DNA from: a virus
Length of the DNA stretch: 24,368 nt
Strand: one strand, 5' to 3'
IMG/VR virus record: IMGVR_UViG_3300017729_000037
Location: 1 to 24,368 of that record
The translations under genes and the position numbers were made by a program. This document shows, piece by piece, positions 1,160 to 12,129 of this stretch (its first letter is position 1; each line of letters starts with the position of its first letter). Under the pieces are notes generated by a model. It saw nothing but the letters and a program-made list of their open reading frames with translations, was not told the origin of the DNA and did not search any database.

Positions 1160-1972
1160 ATGGCGAATACAATTGACACCGCCTTTATTAAACAGTTTGA
1201 ATCAGAGGTTCACATGGCTTATCAGCGCATGGGTTCTAAACTGCGGAACACTGTGCGTACTGTATCAAGCGTTCGTGGGAACACTGTTCGATTCCAAAAG
1301 ATTGGAACAGGCTCTGCTTCAACTAAATCACGAAATGGTATGGTAACTCCAATGGAGTTGGCACACACCAACGTAGAAGCAACAATGTCTGATTTCTATG
1401 CTGCCGAGTATATCGACAAGCTAGATGAATTGAAGACAAACATTGATGAGCGTCAAGCTGTAGCAAAATCTGCTGCCGCTGCTCTTGGTCGTAAGACTGA
1501 TGAGATTCTTATCACTGCTATGGATGCTGGTGCGAACTCAACTCAAATTAGCGGAACTGGTGCTGCTCTTACAAAAGCAAACCTGTTAACTCTTTTTGAA
1601 ACATTTGGTTCAGCTAACATCCCAGAAGATGGTGGGCGTTATCTTGCGATGCACCCAGCAGGTTATGCTGACTTGTTCAACATTACTGAGTTTGCTTCAA
1701 GTGACTTTGTTGGTGAGCAAAACCTACCATTTGCTGGCGGCATGACAATGAAAGAATTTCTTGGCTTCAAGATTTTCTCTACATCAGCCGTTACTGCTGG
1801 TAAAAATATGGCGTACCACACATCATCTATTGGGCTTGGTATCGGTGCAGACGTTACGACTGAACTGAATTATGTCCCAGAGCGTGTGTCACACCTTGCA
1901 ACCTCAATGATGTCCATGGGTTCTATTGTTATTGATGACAATGGTATCTATGAAGTCCTTGACAACAACTAG
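1160..1972 (+). CDS. Major capsid protein (HK97-fold inferred)
   Basis: 270 residues beginning MANTIDTAFIKQFESEV. The start is supported by AGAGGA about 8 bases upstream. The order of elements is that of podovirus coat proteins: an N-terminal helical arm with 'FESEVHMAYQRMGSKLRNTV', an early 'GNTVRFQKIG' strand, the region around 'LDELKTNIDERQAVAKSAAAALGRKTDE' (spine helix), and a C-terminal 'RVSHLATSMMSMGSIVIDDNGI' that matches the usual end of such proteins. It is shorter than T7 gp10A (about 345 residues) and not an obvious close relative; it resembles coat proteins of marine podoviruses. The 88-base gap upstream has a TATATT at 1125-1130 but no convincing -35. The HK97 fold is inferred from family and position. 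Confidence 0.85.
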   Translation: MANTIDTAFIKQFESEVHMAYQRMGSKLRNTVRTVSSVRGNTVRFQKIGTGSASTKSRNGMVTPMELAHTNVEATMSDFYAAEYIDKLDELKTNIDERQAVAKSAAAALGRKTDEILITAMDAGANSTQISGTGAALTKANLLTLFETFGSANIPEDGGRYLAMHPAGYADLFNITEFASSDFVGEQNLPFAGGMTMKEFLGFKIFSTSAVTAGKNMAYHTSSIGLGIGADVTTELNYVPERVSHLATSMMSMGSIVIDDNGIYEVLDNN

Positions 1973-1983
1973 GAGGATTAGAC

Positions 1984-2247
1984 ATGGCATACGCAGCATC
2001 TGGTCTTAATCGTCTTGCAGGGGCGTCTAATGGCAATCTGTGGTTTTATACTACCGCAGACGCTATTGCTACTGTGAACACAGAAGGTTACTTTAATAAC
2101 GCAGCAAACATGCTTAATGTTCGCGATGTTATTATTGTAGCTGACACAAACACACCAACAACAAGTTTTGTTAGTGTGCTTTCTAATACTGGTTCTGTTG
2201 TAGATGTATCTAATGGTACAGCTATAGCTGAAACAGACTCAGACTAA
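1984..2247 (+). CDS. Small head-associated (possible decoration) protein
   Basis: 87 residues, no signal peptide or membrane segment. The composition (Ala, Asn, Thr and Val rich, alternating beta-like pattern, e.g. 'VRDVIIVADTNTPTTSFVSVL') suggests a small beta protein. It starts 11 bases after the capsid stop behind a very strong AGGAGG (1972-1977), so it should be made in large amounts like the coat protein. A highly translated small protein directly after the coat gene is commonly a head decoration or stabilising protein, and this is inferred here from position and expression signal only. Its stop codon overlaps the Shine-Dalgarno of the next gene, which lies next to an unusual hairpin. 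Confidence 0.6.
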   Translation: MAYAASGLNRLAGASNGNLWFYTTADAIATVNTEGYFNNAANMLNVRDVIIVADTNTPTTSFVSVLSNTGSVVDVSNGTAIAETDSD

Positions 2248-2291
2248 AGGAGTAGGGGGGTCAAGGTATTAACTTACCCCCCTAACCACAC
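2246..2291 (+). promoter_or_regulatory. Ribosome-binding site with hairpin between Shine-Dalgarno and ATG
   Basis: The only good Shine-Dalgarno for the gp11-like gene, AAAGGAG (2246-2252), lies 39 bases before the ATG at 2292. The bases between hold an inverted repeat: TAGGGGGGT (2253-2261) pairs perfectly with ACCCCCCTA (2276-2284), and AAG (2263-2265) pairs with CTT (2273-2275) past one bulged C, leaving a 7-base loop. The stem begins on the base after the Shine-Dalgarno and ends 7 bases before the ATG, so folding gives normal spacing. No U-run follows the stem, which argues against a simple intrinsic terminator. The pairing is seen directly; the function is inferred. Confidence 0.65.
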
Positions 2292-2885
2292 ATGGCACTT
2301 GTAAGCACAACGGCTAATTCGCCAATTGATATTTGTAGTAGAGCATTAATTTTAATTGGTGCTGACCCAATTACTTCATTTGATGATGGAAATACAGAAG
2401 CCTTAGTTGCTGTCAATATGTATGAAGATGTTGCTAGAGCATCTTTAGTAAACTCTCGTTGGAGATTTGCCACAAACCAAGCTGTTTTAAATTTATTAAG
2501 TTCTGCCCCTACTGGCAGATATGATCGTGCTTACCAGCTTCCGAGTGATACTCTTATGCTTCATGCTGTTACAGTAAGCGATTTACCTATTGATTATCAG
2601 ATTTACGGAAACAAAGTTTTTTCAGATACTGACCCAGCAGATGTTGTAGTTGCTGACTATACTTTTAGAGCAGAAGAGCAAGACTGGCCTTCTTACTTTA
2701 CAATTGCTGTTGAGTATTCCTTAGCAGTTGTATTTGCTACATCAATTGCAAGAGACTCTACACTTGCAACTCTAATGCAAAGCCAAGGCCAAAACGCTAT
2801 GGCAAAAGCAAGAAGTCTGGACTCACAGCAGCAGACTTCAAGAAAACTTACAACATCTAGGTTTATTGCCGAAAGGCGCAGTTAA
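2292..2885 (+). CDS. Tail tubular protein A / head-to-tail adaptor (T7 gp11-like)
   Basis: 197 residues, almost the same length as T7 gp11 (196). The N-terminal 'SPIDICSRALILIGADPITSFDDG' is the family's typical opening, followed by a helical region 'YEDVARASLVNSRWRFATNQA', a beta segment ending in 'YQLPSDTLMLHAV', and a C-terminal helical part. In T7-like virions a ring of this protein joins portal to nozzle and gives the attachment surface for fibres. No in-frame start lies between the stop at 2283-2285 and the ATG at 2292, and the family motif begins ten residues in, so this start is secure. Translation probably depends on the hairpin-bridged Shine-Dalgarno just upstream. The stop overlaps the next ATG (TAATG). 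Confidence 0.9.
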   Translation: MALVSTTANSPIDICSRALILIGADPITSFDDGNTEALVAVNMYEDVARASLVNSRWRFATNQAVLNLLSSAPTGRYDRAYQLPSDTLMLHAVTVSDLPIDYQIYGNKVFSDTDPADVVVADYTFRAEEQDWPSYFTIAVEYSLAVVFATSIARDSTLATLMQSQGQNAMAKARSLDSQQQTSRKLTTSRFIAERRS

Positions 2886-5593: not shown

Positions 5594-7921
5594 ATGGCAG
5601 TAATTAGAGAAAAACAACAGTTTAGAAACTCACGCATAGGCGTAGTTCGCATGGATACTGGCGAAAGTCAGATGTGGCAAACTGTTGCGTCTGCTGCTGA
5701 CTCCTTAACTCAGCAAGCTTTTAAGCAGGCCTCTGTAGAGGCGCAGAACAAAGGCAAGGAGTTTGCAGAATCTGTTGGCGAGGAGTCATTAAGAACAATC
5801 GACCCAGCTACAGGCAAGCCTCAGGCGTTTAAAGCACCAACAAGCTTTGGAACTATTGCTCAAGCTGCTTATGAAGAGACTCTTGATCGTAGATACATAC
5901 GCACTGTTGATAGAGAAATAAGAGACAAAGCAAACGAAACATATCTTAAGTATGAGTTTGATCCGCAGGGTGTGGAGAAATACTCACAGGTAATGGAAGA
6001 CTATGTTGGCGGAATGACCAAGAACGCTGACAAGCGTTTTGAAGGAATTGTTCGTGACACAGGCGCAGCTTATATTGCCAGCACAAAATTCAATCTTATG
6101 CAGAAGCGCAATCTTAGAATCAAAGAAGCTGAACAGATTGCACAAAGAGATGATGCAAAAGACAACGCTTCATTTATTGAGTCTATGGCTGAAAATGTAG
6201 ATTGGAGTTTGCCTGATTCACAAGGCCACAGAGATGTTGAAGACATGTACATGGAAGGGGTTGCTGGTCAAAGAGCAGCAAATGTTGCTGGTTTAATTTC
6301 TGATGCACAATTTGAGGCAAACGTAGGTGTAATGCGTAGAGCATTGCCTAAAGCGATACTGTCAAAGATGATTAATTTTGATACTGTGTATGAAAAAGAA
6401 GATGGCAGCACAGTTCAAATAAACTCTGATGTAGCTCTTTCTATAGAAAACTCACTAAAAACTAATAGGGTTCTTGATGAAGTGCCTACAGCTTTGAAGC
6501 CTCAAGTTCAAAGAATACTTGATTCAGAGGCTTATGATAAAGATCGTGACAACATAGCTCGACATGTTACAGCACTAAGAACAAATCTAAGCCTCAAAGA
6601 ATCAGATGCTGTTAAGCTAACAGCGTTTCAAAAGACTGTGCTTAATGTTGCCGAAGAAGGTTTTGTTGTTGACACAAATGACTCGCAAGTAAAAAAAGCT
6701 GGCGATGTTTTAATAGCAAATGAAGTTGATAGTTTAGACCCAGCAAGGCCTAACATGGTTCCTTATTTTACAAGCGAAGAGTCTACAAAAGAAGATGCGC
6801 CTTGGAAAATCATGGTTGCAGGAAAAGGCATTATAACTGAGGGCATGGAGCTAACGCTAAAAAGAATTTACAGGCTTGAAGGCATGACTAAAGAACAAAT
6901 AGAAATTGGTTTAAGTCATTATGATTATTTAGCTAATGTAAATATTGCAGGTTCTACTGTTAACAAAACATTAGACACAACTTTGTCAAACGATGAAAAC
7001 GCATTCTTACGCACACTAAGCTATGTAACTAGAGTTGGTGGCTCTGAAAACATTGTTGAGTTTGCCGCTAAGTTAAAAGAAAACATGCAGAATACATCGG
7101 CTGTAAATGACAGAGTTAAGTCAGTCCTTGGTGATGGTGATAAAGACAAAAAATCGGCTAACGATCTTTTAAATGCTTATCTTCAAGGCGATAACGACAT
7201 AAATGAATCAACTGCATTTGGAACTGATTACCAAATGGTTGAAACTGTAAAGCCGTATGTAAAGCATTTGATTATGTCTGGTGTTGGAAAAGAAGATTTA
7301 AACGAACAGTTAAACGAAATGTTTGAAACATCTTACATTAATACTGTTGGTGTTGTTGTCGATAGATACAACTCCCAGATAGATAAGTCTATGTTTGCGT
7401 TGCCAAGATTGCTGCCAGACTATGCGGAAAGGCAGGCTTTTTATAGTAACGCTACAGAATTAGTCCAAACCTTAAGCGGTAAAAATTTTTTAATGCGTGA
7501 AAAAGGTCAGTACATAGGCATCGAAAAAGACCGACAGATAAAACTTGTGCCAATGACAACAAGCGCATTTCAGCCTGATGTATTACCGTTAGAATACAAA
7601 ATAGATGATGACTTATCAGAAGAAGGGTTTGTTACAAGAAGCTCGTCACTGCAAACATTCCAATATATTGCTCATTACGTTGATGATGATGGTCAACTTA
7701 GAATGATCCCAGATAAAAACGGTAGTCCAATATTTATAGGCACAGAGTTGGCTTATGAAGACATTGCCAACATAAGAAAAGCGCAATCACAAGATGAAAT
7801 GTATGATGCTAATAAAAAAACATTAAGAAAAATAGAAATAAGTAGGCTAACTAAAGCTCGTATTGATAGGAATGTTGAGGCTTTAAGTAATATAGCGTCG
7901 CCATTTAAAGGTGATGATTAA
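5594..7921 (+). CDS. Internal virion (ejection) protein C-like (T7 gp15-like)
   Basis: 775 residues (T7 gp15 is 747), soluble and highly charged, mostly helical, with no signal peptide or membrane segment. I recognise it by size, composition and position between the gp14-like and gp16-like genes. Its opening 'FRNSRIGVVRMDTGESQMWQTVASAADSLTQQAF' is of the kind that starts gp15-type proteins in marine podoviruses. In T7 this protein is part of the internal core and of the trans-periplasmic channel that carries the genome into the cell. The stop TAA overlaps the next ATG by one base. No enzymatic motif was seen. Confidence 0.75.
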   Translation: MAVIREKQQFRNSRIGVVRMDTGESQMWQTVASAADSLTQQAFKQASVEAQNKGKEFAESVGEESLRTIDPATGKPQAFKAPTSFGTIAQAAYEETLDRRYIRTVDREIRDKANETYLKYEFDPQGVEKYSQVMEDYVGGMTKNADKRFEGIVRDTGAAYIASTKFNLMQKRNLRIKEAEQIAQRDDAKDNASFIESMAENVDWSLPDSQGHRDVEDMYMEGVAGQRAANVAGLISDAQFEANVGVMRRALPKAILSKMINFDTVYEKEDGSTVQINSDVALSIENSLKTNRVLDEVPTALKPQVQRILDSEAYDKDRDNIARHVTALRTNLSLKESDAVKLTAFQKTVLNVAEEGFVVDTNDSQVKKAGDVLIANEVDSLDPARPNMVPYFTSEESTKEDAPWKIMVAGKGIITEGMELTLKRIYRLEGMTKEQIEIGLSHYDYLANVNIAGSTVNKTLDTTLSNDENAFLRTLSYVTRVGGSENIVEFAAKLKENMQNTSAVNDRVKSVLGDGDKDKKSANDLLNAYLQGDNDINESTAFGTDYQMVETVKPYVKHLIMSGVGKEDLNEQLNEMFETSYINTVGVVVDRYNSQIDKSMFALPRLLPDYAERQAFYSNATELVQTLSGKNFLMREKGQYIGIEKDRQIKLVPMTTSAFQPDVLPLEYKIDDDLSEEGFVTRSSSLQTFQYIAHYVDDDGQLRMIPDKNGSPIFIGTELAYEDIANIRKAQSQDEMYDANKKTLRKIEISRLTKARIDRNVEALSNIASPFKGDD

Positions 7922-10900
7922 TGGGAATTAATCCTTGGGAATCAACGCAAGCAACTTTTGTTGAATCAGATGTTTCTAAAAGGCGGTCGTTGCAGCGCGT
8001 AGAGCAGCCTGAGTTTTTTGCTGACACTGTTCCGGCGGCTCTTGGTTATCAATACCTGCCTATGTTTGAAGCTGTTAGGAATGCAGTTAAGCATGGAACA
8101 GAAGTTCAACAGGGTTACAATGCTCTTGATGACGTAGATGGGTATGAAGAGTACAAACACCATTTAATGAATGCTGTTAGCGAAGATCATATGCGTGATC
8201 TTAAAATGCAGCTTGATGAAAACAAAAAACGCAGACAGGTTTTAGCTGACTCATCATTCTGGGCTAACTTGGGTGCTGGTATCTTTGATCCAATTAACTT
8301 AGTTGCTTTGCCTTTTGGCGGCGCAGCCGCTACTGCTGGTCGGCAGTTCTTGCGTACTGGTGCTGGCGTAGGTGTTACACAGGCTGGCTTAGAGGTGGCT
8401 CGTGCGCCGTTTGATCCACTATCTACCCCATCAGAAGTGGCTACAAACATAGGCTCTGCTTTTGTTATTGGTGGTGCTATTGGAAGTCTTGTGTCTATAC
8501 CGGCTAGACGTAGAGGCGCAGCAATAAAGAAAACTGAAACTCAAGTAACGGAATTTGCAAATGAGGTAGGTGACATTACACCTGACCAAATTAGAAACAT
8601 TAACAATCCAGAATACAGAACATTTAAAGATAGAAAGCAAAGTGAATTAAATAATTTTGAAAAAATATTTCCAAAAGAACGTGATCTACTAGAATCTAAA
8701 TTGCAAAAGGCTAAAGAAAAAGCAGATGCGCTTTTTAAAAAAGCAAGTGATTTGCGTGAGCAAGTCAAAAAGAATCCAGCATTAGAAGCCAAGAACAGTG
8801 TTTTGTATAAAAAAGCAATAGAACAATATAATGCTGCTAATGTTCAAGTAAAAATACTTCAGACAGCAACAGCACAGAAAAGAGTTGATGTTGAAAAGGT
8901 AAAAGAAGAACAGCTATTTCGTAGGGTTGAAGAAGTAAAAGATATTGGTGGCGATGTTTCAAAGCCGTTTGATTTTGCAGATAACTTCTTTACAGATTCT
9001 TGGGCTTTTAAGGGTGTTACCACAGGCTTTAAAAGAGTTTTGCAAGACAAAGAAATACCTCAAAGCGTTAAAAGCACTATGGTTAGATTAGCTGGTGATG
9101 CTGGTATGTTGTTTAAAATGAATCAAATGGGGTTTGCTACACCAAAATCTGTTTATCAATATGCTCAAACAAGAAATGGTGAGTGGCTACAAGTATACAC
9201 GAAAATGCTAACACAGTTTGGTGAACACAGTGGCAAAGGCGTTACTCAAGTTGGTGACGTAAATTTTTCAAACATTGATGGTTCGTTTTCTGCATATCTA
9301 AAAGAAGTTAATCGTAAATACATAAACGGTGAAGAAGCTTCTACAACAGCAGAAAAAGAATCAATACAGGCATTAAATAAGTTTTATAAAACTTGGGAAG
9401 ACAGGCTTGTAGAGCAAGGCATTATTGGCAGCATAAAATCTATTGAAGCCAAGATGGACAACATTAAATTTAAAATACAACGAAAAGAAAAAACACTTCT
9501 TGATGCTCAGATTAAAATAATTGAAAAAGCATTTAGCACAGAAGAAGCACAGCGATGGGTTAGCAGGCTTAAAAGAAAAAAATTTAATCAAACTGATGTT
9601 GTAAGAATGGTTAAATCACCACTAACTGGTGAGTTACCAAAAGGTGTTCCTGATTATCTTATTGACGTTATAAACGATTCCAATACTAGATTAAGTGCGC
9701 TTGAAGATCAGTTGTATGAACTTGAGTTTAGTATGCTTGTGGCTAAAGAAGAAAGAACATTGCCACAAAACGAAGAGTTAATGTTTCCTCGCTATTGGAA
9801 TAGAGATCAAATACGCGAAAAAAGACAAGAATTTGCTGCAATATTAAAAGAGCATTACAAAGAAAACCCTTACATTTACGAACGCAATGAAGCTGCGTTT
9901 GAAGAACGGCGCATTAGAAACATATCTGAATTAAGTGACGCAGAAATCCAAGCGCGGTTTGGCGAAGAGTTTAATATGGTTAGTATTACGTCTAATTTTA
10001 GACGCGTGCAAGATGGCCCTATTGGGCAGCAAGGCGGTGGTGCGCTTGGTATGTTTGTGCGTTATGCTAATGATGGAAGGCAAGAAGTCTATTTAGACAG
10101 CACTGGCATTTATCAATATTACAATGAGATGGCAGAAGCTATGAAAAACCCATCTAAAGCTTTTAAAGACTTAGATGCTACACGCTCAAAGACTTCAGAA
10201 GATTATGCTCACAGAAAATTTGTAATGCGTAATTGGAGTTTTTTTCAAACTTTTAATGATTTTCAAGACTTTGTTTTGTTTCACGAGTTGCATCACAACA
10301 AGTTTAATCGGCGATCAATGGGTGTTAAGACACAAGCAGATCAGCTTAGAATGGAAAATGCTACAGATAGGGCTGCTCTTGCATTTCTTAAACAAAAACT
10401 ACCAGAAATACGCGAAGGTCAGCCAGTCTATTTCAAGCGTAGGCTTGATGTTGAAGACGAGCGTATGCTCAATAAACGCGTTGAAGACACAATAGATAAT
10501 ATATTGGGATTGGCTGATACTGCTAATGACATGAACGCGTATTACGGTGCTGGCAAATCTAAACACATGCGTCACAGATCATTAGATATTCCAAATGCAA
10601 AAGTTTTTGATTTTATTCAAAATGATCCACTTGCTGTAATGAGAGCGTACACAACTCGCGTTGCGCCTCAGTATGAGTTTTCTAAAATGTTTGGTGGCAA
10701 GTCAGTAGATGAAGTTTTAGATGACATTGATATTGATATGGCTGGCAAACCCATAGAAAAAATAAACGCAGCTAGAAAAGACTTTTTGCATTTATATGAT
10801 CGTGTTGTAGGCACAGTATTGCGTGAGCCGCATTCATGGGATCAGCGTACAGCTACTGTGCTAAGAGATTTTGCACAGCTTAATTACCTTGGCTCTGCTG

Positions 10901-12129
10901 GCTTTTCTACATTGCCTGACTTTGCAAAAATTATGATGGAGCATGAGCTTAAAGATGTATTTAAAACTTTATTCGCAACAATTTCTGATTCTCGTATACG
11001 CATGTCAGCTATGGAAGGTAAGTACGCTGGTGAAATAGCAGAGATTATATCAGGCGACGCGCATATGCGCCTTGTAGATGATGTAAGCAACAATCCTTTT
11101 AACGAAGGAACGTATGACAAATACATGAGCAAGCTTAAATGGGGTTTTTATCAAGCTAACTTGCTTGCGCCTATGACTAACATTATGAAAAAAATGGATG
11201 CAATTGTTCGTGGTCATTCATTAATACAAATGTCTATGCGTCTTGCTGGAAGCGGTAAGAAAGCAACTAAGTTTGAGGTTGAGTATCTTGCTCGATATGG
11301 AATTGACAAAGCAAAGGCTAAACGCATTCGTGAGCTTGTTGATAATAAAGTTATTGACCAGACTGAAGGCGGCCTATACTTACCAAGCACAGAAAAATGG
11401 CCTGTAGAATATGACGATTTAAAGCTAGAGTTTCGTAGTTCGCTTAACAGTGGCATTATGAATACTATTCTTATGGGTACACCAGCAGATAAACCAAACA
11501 TTGTTGATGGTGTAGTTTACGTTCCTTATCGCATAGCTAGACAGTTTGGCGGCAAGGAAGACCCTAAGTATCGCGGCTATACACGCATAGAAAATGGATT
11601 GCTTGGCTTACCGTTTCAGTTCTACTCATATACATTAGCAGCGGTAAACAAAATTACAGCTTCATACGCCACAGGTCAGGCAAGAAACAGGGCAGTAGCA
11701 CTAGCCGCATCTATGGGACTTGCGTATATGGGTCTGGAATTAAAAAATCCTGATTTTGTTATGGATGAAATGGCAATAGAAGATAAAATTGCACGTTCTT
11801 TTGATATGTCTGGTATGGCTGCTTTGTATTCAGATGGTCTTTATACCGCAATGCATACATCAATGGCTCTAGGTGGGCCTGATATATCTATGGGTTTAAT
11901 TCAGCCAAAGTTCCCACAAGAAGAAAACATTGCCGATGCGGCAGTTGGTGTGTTAGGTGCGGGGCCAAGTATAGGTCTGGACATTACTAGAGGCGTTGGT
12001 GAATTTGTAAGTGGTAATTATGGTGAAGGCGCAAAACAAACTATGCGTTCTATGCCATTAGCTAGATTATGGTTATGGAAAGATTTTATGAATGAAGCTA
12101 GTAATGCGTTTACTGCAAAGCGTTACTAA
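7921..12129 (+). CDS. Large internal virion/ejection protein (T7 gp16-like) with embedded HExxH metallopeptidase-like domain
   Basis: 1402 residues, the largest gene here (T7 gp16 is 1318). Residues about 111-195 are Gly/Ala rich and hydrophobic, suited to membrane contact. Coiled-coil-like charged helices occupy about 235-345 and 495-570. An 'MFPRYWNRDQIREKR' motif lies at 621-635. In place of T7's N-terminal transglycosylase, which I do not see, residues 788-792 read HELHH (10282-10296). Glu812 lies 20 residues after the second His and begins ENATD (ExxxD), matching the thermolysin-type gluzincin arrangement and loosely the ImmA/IrrE type. The C-terminus has a hydrophobic stretch near 'AVALAASMGLAYMGLEL'. 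The role as an ejected core protein is inferred from position and size; peptidase activity is inferred from the motif only. Confidence 0.8.
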   Translation: MGINPWESTQATFVESDVSKRRSLQRVEQPEFFADTVPAALGYQYLPMFEAVRNAVKHGTEVQQGYNALDDVDGYEEYKHHLMNAVSEDHMRDLKMQLDENKKRRQVLADSSFWANLGAGIFDPINLVALPFGGAAATAGRQFLRTGAGVGVTQAGLEVARAPFDPLSTPSEVATNIGSAFVIGGAIGSLVSIPARRRGAAIKKTETQVTEFANEVGDITPDQIRNINNPEYRTFKDRKQSELNNFEKIFPKERDLLESKLQKAKEKADALFKKASDLREQVKKNPALEAKNSVLYKKAIEQYNAANVQVKILQTATAQKRVDVEKVKEEQLFRRVEEVKDIGGDVSKPFDFADNFFTDSWAFKGVTTGFKRVLQDKEIPQSVKSTMVRLAGDAGMLFKMNQMGFATPKSVYQYAQTRNGEWLQVYTKMLTQFGEHSGKGVTQVGDVNFSNIDGSFSAYLKEVNRKYINGEEASTTAEKESIQALNKFYKTWEDRLVEQGIIGSIKSIEAKMDNIKFKIQRKEKTLLDAQIKIIEKAFSTEEAQRWVSRLKRKKFNQTDVVRMVKSPLTGELPKGVPDYLIDVINDSNTRLSALEDQLYELEFSMLVAKEERTLPQNEELMFPRYWNRDQIREKRQEFAAILKEHYKENPYIYERNEAAFEERRIRNISELSDAEIQARFGEEFNMVSITSNFRRVQDGPIGQQGGGALGMFVRYANDGRQEVYLDSTGIYQYYNEMAEAMKNPSKAFKDLDATRSKTSEDYAHRKFVMRNWSFFQTFNDFQDFVLFHELHHNKFNRRSMGVKTQADQLRMENATDRAALAFLKQKLPEIREGQPVYFKRRLDVEDERMLNKRVEDTIDNILGLADTANDMNAYYGAGKSKHMRHRSLDIPNAKVFDFIQNDPLAVMRAYTTRVAPQYEFSKMFGGKSVDEVLDDIDIDMAGKPIEKINAARKDFLHLYDRVVGTVLREPHSWDQRTATVLRDFAQLNYLGSAGFSTLPDFAKIMMEHELKDVFKTLFATISDSRIRMSAMEGKYAGEIAEIISGDAHMRLVDDVSNNPFNEGTYDKYMSKLKWGFYQANLLAPMTNIMKKMDAIVRGHSLIQMSMRLAGSGKKATKFEVEYLARYGIDKAKAKRIRELVDNKVIDQTEGGLYLPSTEKWPVEYDDLKLEFRSSLNSGIMNTILMGTPADKPNIVDGVVYVPYRIARQFGGKEDPKYRGYTRIENGLLGLPFQFYSYTLAAVNKITASYATGQARNRAVALAASMGLAYMGLELKNPDFVMDEMAIEDKIARSFDMSGMAALYSDGLYTAMHTSMALGGPDISMGLIQPKFPQEENIADAAVGVLGAGPSIGLDITRGVGEFVSGNYGEGAKQTMRSMPLARLWLWKDFMNEASNAFTAKRY

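Follow-up and report, generated by a model that had tools for sequence, protein, structure and literature searches.

The viral sequence analysed here (IMG/VR record IMGVR_UViG_3300017729_000037, positions 1-24,368; the complete 24,368 nucleotides (nt) are referred to as the window) carries a stable RNA hairpin (TAGGGGGGTCAAGGTATTAACTTACCCCCCTA, 2253-2284, + strand) at the junction of its head and tail genes. The hairpin separates a Shine-Dalgarno (SD) sequence from the start codon of a gene for a T7 gp11-like tail tubular protein, and comparison with related phages suggests a split ribosome-binding site in which the folded hairpin acts as structural spacer (probability roughly 84 %). The junction comprises the UAA stop codon of an 87-aa gene (2245-2247), the SD AAAGGAG (2246-2252), the hairpin, a linker (ACCACAC, 2285-2291) and the ATG (2292). 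With 12 pairs, a bulged C (C2262), a 7-nt loop and a G6/C6 core, the hairpin reduces the gap between SD and ATG from 39 nt (unfolded) to 7 nt (folded). These positions and spacings, as well as the absence of a U-tract behind a very stable six-G/six-C stem, had been proposed in a sequence-only reading of the window and all proved correct; the minimum free energy amounts to -30.6 kcal/mol (z -3.4), with none of 200 shuffled sequences being equally stable. The gp11-like nature of the downstream gene, likewise proposed there, is backed by two profile matches (Table 1).

The SD of the split site forms an anti-SD duplex of -8.2 kcal/mol (calculated, as all anti-SD energies below, for an E. coli-type 16S rRNA 3' end) and directly abuts the stem (0-nt gap), as it does in nearly all relatives. 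The 7-nt linker scores +2.1 kcal/mol and represents the weakest linear SD among the 26 genes of the window; those of the remaining genes span -1.8 to -12.0 kcal/mol, with 24 of 25 tested at -3.4 kcal/mol or better. The 87-aa gene possesses an ordinary SD of its own (AGGAGG, -10.2 kcal/mol), and its UAA overlaps the SD of the split site. The window hairpin is not a canonical terminator: it is GC-rich, as in intrinsic terminators, but the 3' side of its stem continues into ACCACACAUG rather than into a U-tract, and scans of the window for terminators and sigma-70 promoters made no call at the hairpin. An Rfam search matched no family, and a covariance model run on the window returned one good site only, on the + strand.

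Table 1. Features at the head-tail junction of the window
Feature	Position	Strand	Evidence
Major capsid protein gene (upstream head gene)	1160..1972	+	phrog_3437 E 2.6e-55; Pfam Phage_capsid_2 E 1.3e-62
87-aa gene separating the capsid gene from the tail genes, decoration-like in its position	1984..2247	+	phrog_18004 (unknown function) E 3e-20
Putative 5' half of split ribosome-binding site, SD AAAGGAG	2246..2252	+	anti-SD duplex -8.2 kcal/mol
Putative spacer hairpin, 12 bp and one bulge, 7-nt loop	2253..2284	+	fold, covariation
7-nt linker ACCACAC without SD	2285..2291	+	linker length conserved among split sites
Tail tubular protein A gene (T7 gp11-like), 197 aa	2292..2885	+	phrog_394 tail protein E 4e-37; Pfam Tube PF17212 E 8e-6

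All 80 close relatives retrieved from IMG/VR (72-100 % protein identity) share the succession of SD, hairpin, short linker and ATG, and none of them has a U-tract. Their stems and loops are diverse (G6/C6, GGGGAGG/CCTCCCC, GGGGAAGG/CCTTCCCC, AGGGAGAGG/CCTCTCCCT), short forms of the hairpin carrying CTTCGG-, GAAA- or GTAA-type loops. Among 61 distinct sequences of the window clade, the hairpin measures 18-38 nt and the linear SD-AUG distance (anti-SD-aligned) 23-41 nt, while the effective spacing is 6-9 nt (exactly 7 nt in 42 of 61; three values of 3 result from misparsed stems), and the SD is in contact with the stem. Over the 98 sites classified as strictly split (SD energy <= -4 kcal/mol, linker <= 11 nt; loops, linkers and layout states assigned by custom scripts using energy thresholds), the linker has 7.2 +/- 0.7 nt (6-9) next to hairpins of 18-38 nt. 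That the linker is constant rather than the length of RNA between SD and AUG is the signature expected if the ribosome reads the folded form. The proposal that the hairpin brings the SD to the start codon is thereby strengthened, since a folded spacing of about 7 nt persists as the hairpin doubles in length, and since the stem co-varies. The small upstream gene is missing in some relatives, where the capsid gene itself directly precedes the SD. The upstream stop codon ends 4-8 nt 5' of the hairpin in 59 of the 61 window-clade sequences, so that SD and stop touch or overlap.

The stems were mis-paired when all junctions were aligned with MAFFT; for this reason, covariation was assessed on 18 sequences aligned with a covariance model, an alignment that is fitted to the structure and biased towards it. 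There, 99.1 % of the cells are paired, and both sides have changed in 4 of 13 pairs. The covariation score was reached by none of 500 shuffles, and partners slid by 1-3 columns pair far worse. Hence, the paired changes that the sequence-only reading had suggested looking for in related phages do occur. The layout of the window is conserved far beyond chance, with compensatory changes and presence in every close relative.

Across the wider family, 240 distinct junctions were compiled from IMG/VR, GenBank phages and GTDB genomes, distant relatives being sampled via Pelagibacter phage Hodr, Methylophilales phage MEP301 and two intermediates derived from metagenome-assembled genomes (MAGs). A hairpin is present in 236 of them. 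The split layout accounts for 104 junctions (98 strict) with linkers of 5-10 nt, none of which contains an SD, a property that is not part of the definition of this class. In the direct layout (97 junctions), the hairpin is followed by a linker of 17-25 nt, often U-rich, with an SD of its own (-3.8 to -10.5 kcal/mol), which here is part of the definition. Neither layout applies to 35 junctions, nearly all from the Hodr clade, with a hairpin and no convincing SD; six further Hodr-clade sequences, with SDs of -3.0 to -3.1 kcal/mol that overlap the stem, appear split only at the threshold and were treated as unclear. The four junctions devoid of a hairpin (L162, L167, L168, L378) possess a direct SD. 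Placement of an SD immediately at the ATG, regarded in the sequence-only reading as speaking against bridging, is encountered in relatives only with linkers of 17-25 nt, many of them behind terminator-like hairpins, or where the hairpin is missing. By energy criteria alone, 27 sequences have an SD on both sides of the hairpin; these look like direct-type junctions in which the G-run at the foot of the stem mimics a weak SD. Terminator-like hairpins (5-T-in-8 rule) occur in 39 of 97 direct-type junctions versus 8 of 104 split sites, and hairpin, U-tract and direct SD are combined at the junctions of Vibrio phage 1.138, CKB-S2, Yersinia phage YeP5 and one fecal contig; a search with the protein of the latter as query gave no matches.

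A scan of 2,056 open reading frame starts from the 240 loci recovered the SD-hairpin-ATG layout at 91 tail-gene starts and two internal ATGs, with a single occurrence in the window. The two internal matches are spurious, i.e., the layout is specific to the tail gene.

Several observations concern individual members of this collection. In Hodr itself (L081, 3941-3997), the tail tube gene has an SD energy of -1.5 kcal/mol (i.e., none) despite the hairpin, and the capsid gene and the next small gene reach -11.6 and -12.8 kcal/mol. Its GenBank entry OQ414635, although named Hodr, bears Baldr locus tags and OQ414636 (L164) vice versa, so that the tags seem swapped. In the MEP301-type clade (L161, L253-L332), conserved TGCA motifs flank the hairpin (aaTGCA...stem...TTTGCACATTT); they could extend the stem across an internal loop and possibly mark a processing site. 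Three relatives (L333, L334, L335) are binned in MAGs of an archaeon, an Opitutae and a Rhodobacterales bacterium, respectively, and these conflicting hosts suggest binning artefacts.

Split and direct layouts appear to have replaced one another on several occasions, including between tail genes that are nearly the same. In a tree of tail proteins with 146 rows, the split label requires 11 changes, at least 5 of them forced by supported branches, although some changes rest on doubtful layout calls in the Hodr clade; limited to split and direct rows, 7 changes are needed. The most clear-cut examples come from a single clade: the tail proteins of L484 (split) and L487 (direct) are nearly indistinguishable, and those of L429 (direct) and L432 (split) are close to each other as well. 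In both pairs the split member has the capsid gene directly upstream and the direct member a small extra gene; since the upstream gene differs along with the layout, recombination at the junction probably carries the layout along. L484 and L487 differ in upstream gene and layout 90 nt upstream of their near-identical tail genes, a contrast pointing to recombination exactly at the head-tail junction. As T7 and the Vibrio, Yersinia and MEP301 relatives have the direct layout, this layout is more likely to be ancestral, even though the overall direction is not proven; an old transcription-stop hairpin may thus have been reused as a part of translation.

Ribosome-binding sites split by a hairpin in this manner are documented for two genes of phage T4, which bears out the precedent invoked in the sequence-only reading (genes 38 and 25; PMC3014915). 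A structure located between SD and AUG brings the spacing down from 22 to 5 nt in gene 38 and from 27 to 11 nt at the gene 26-25 junction, the latter being termed a split ribosome-binding site, and destabilising the structure lowers translation of both genes (PMC3014915). The split initiation region of gene 25 is confined to one branch of its phage group (PMC3014915). Shortening of the SD-AUG spacing by an RNA structure is common to gene 25 and the window, but the latter concerns an unrelated gene and phage, a spacing of 7 nt and a G-run/C-run stem of variable length, and in relatives of the window this position is taken by a terminator-type hairpin. T4 gene 38 differs in being a tail-fibre related gene of a myovirus, and we know of no head-tail boundary role for its intercistronic hairpin. 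At the E. coli thrS split site, the ribosome accommodates a folded hairpin in the binding site without unfolding it (PMC3936740), but an SD-hairpin-AUG compaction of the window type is absent from thrS. At the T7 gene 10-11 junction, the terminator T-phi (hairpin and U6) is followed by AAAGGAGG beside the gene 11 ATG, representing the direct layout. T7 and the window thus both have a hairpin at this gene junction, preceding equivalent tail tube genes, and differ in that the window has neither the U6 tract nor a separate SD such as AAAGGAGG near the ATG. The analogy to T-phi drawn in the sequence-only reading holds in this form, the split layout replacing the terminator and direct SD of T7.

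While geometry, its conservation and covariation can be read directly from the sequences, accommodation of the folded hairpin by the ribosome of the host is what we infer from them. The hairpin (2253-2284) would stay folded in the transcript, placing the SD (2246-2252) 7 nt from the AUG (2292), and the 30S subunit could then use SD and AUG together across it. The hairpin is positionally homologous to the terminator that separates the capsid and tail genes in T7-like phages, and a terminator-type hairpin of the head-tail boundary is its probable origin. The lineage of the window may have lost the U-tail, reduced the 3' linker to some 7 nt and relocated the SD to the stem's 5' foot.

Four points weigh against a split site bridged by the hairpin. 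The GG of the SD can pair with the CC of the linker when the RNA is folded alone, opening of the SD costing 2.8 kcal/mol. The anti-SD energies assume an E. coli-type 3' end of the 16S rRNA, from which that of the host may differ. The Hodr-type clade retains the hairpin with no convincing SD on either side in 32 of 38 sequences, which implies that the hairpin has, or had, another role besides bridging. Finally, related sequences share ancestry, so that counts of sites are not counts of independent events; only 4 phylogenetically independent pairs on supported branches are available, too few for significance, and all that differed went the expected way at the -4 kcal/mol threshold.

That the hairpin acts as a transcription terminator or attenuator equivalent to T-phi and reduces tail mRNA, with the adjacent SD being incidental, is very improbable. 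T-phi at the same junction, the four phages and contigs combining hairpin, U-tract and direct SD, and the 39 terminator-like direct-type relatives argue for such a function, but the window lacks a U-tract, terminator-like hairpins are rare among split sites, and the fixed 7-nt linker and the SD at the foot of the stem are left unexplained. In addition, a T7-type RNA polymerase was not found in ten near-full-length relatives or Hodr (T7 control, E 1e-109); the rules of the host polymerase presumably apply, making termination of a phage polymerase unlikely. A role as 3'-end stabiliser or pause hairpin of the capsid mRNA, resulting in stable capsid and less tail message, is also unlikely, although compatible with a split site. 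It has a precedent in the E-hairpin of the galE-galT junction, where a GC hairpin at a cistron boundary blocks 3'-5' exonucleases (PMC9239205), and would explain the hairpin without SD in the Hodr clade. However, the galE hairpin acts on transcript 3' ends and is not described as an SD-AUG spacer, and neither the constant linker nor the SD at the stem foot nor the missing linear SD of split-type phages would be expected from this role. About equally doubtful is a scenario in which the tail gene is translated chiefly through re-initiation at, or coupling to, the upstream stop, with the role of hairpin and SD limited to keeping terminating ribosomes in place; this overlaps with the split site as such. 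The close stop codon in 59 of 61 window-clade sequences, touching or overlapping the SD, agrees with coupling, but compact spacing is expected in any phage operon, and direct-type relatives also have the stop near the hairpin yet carry an SD of their own.

As a consequence of the split site, translation of the tail gene might be weaker or conditional, since the SD overlaps the stop codon of an upstream gene that is presumably translated at a high rate, and every ribosome terminating there would oblige the hairpin to fold anew; we consider this only tentatively. It is plausible by analogy that the hairpin sets the step-down from coat to tail protein suggested in the sequence-only reading, considering T-phi at the same place in T7 and the overlap of SD and upstream stop. 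Possible, though somewhat short of probable, is the broader scenario in which the terminator hairpin of the head-tail boundary was repeatedly converted to an obligatory folded spacer of the ribosome-binding site and back, one homologous hairpin controlling coat-to-tail dosage by stopping transcription in some phages and gating translation in others. Since split junctions alternate with terminator-type ones even where the tail genes are nearly identical, control of transcription seems able to take the place of control of translation and vice versa; this exchange would fall at the point at which T7-like phages need a large amount of coat protein but only a little tail protein. An earlier description of the element in Pelagibacter/HTVC010P-type phages was not found in the literature searched, which largely excluded subscription journals. 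In an entire group of marine phages a split site of strict geometry appears to be fixed, and its about 100 natural variants provide a test set for the tolerance of the ribosome towards a folded hairpin between SD and AUG.

Elsewhere in the window, a gene at 580-1071 assigned to phrog_308 ("internal virion protein") precedes the capsid gene. A putative internal virion protein of 1402 aa (7921-12129), without Pfam match, displays the zinc-metallopeptidase-like motif HELHH.
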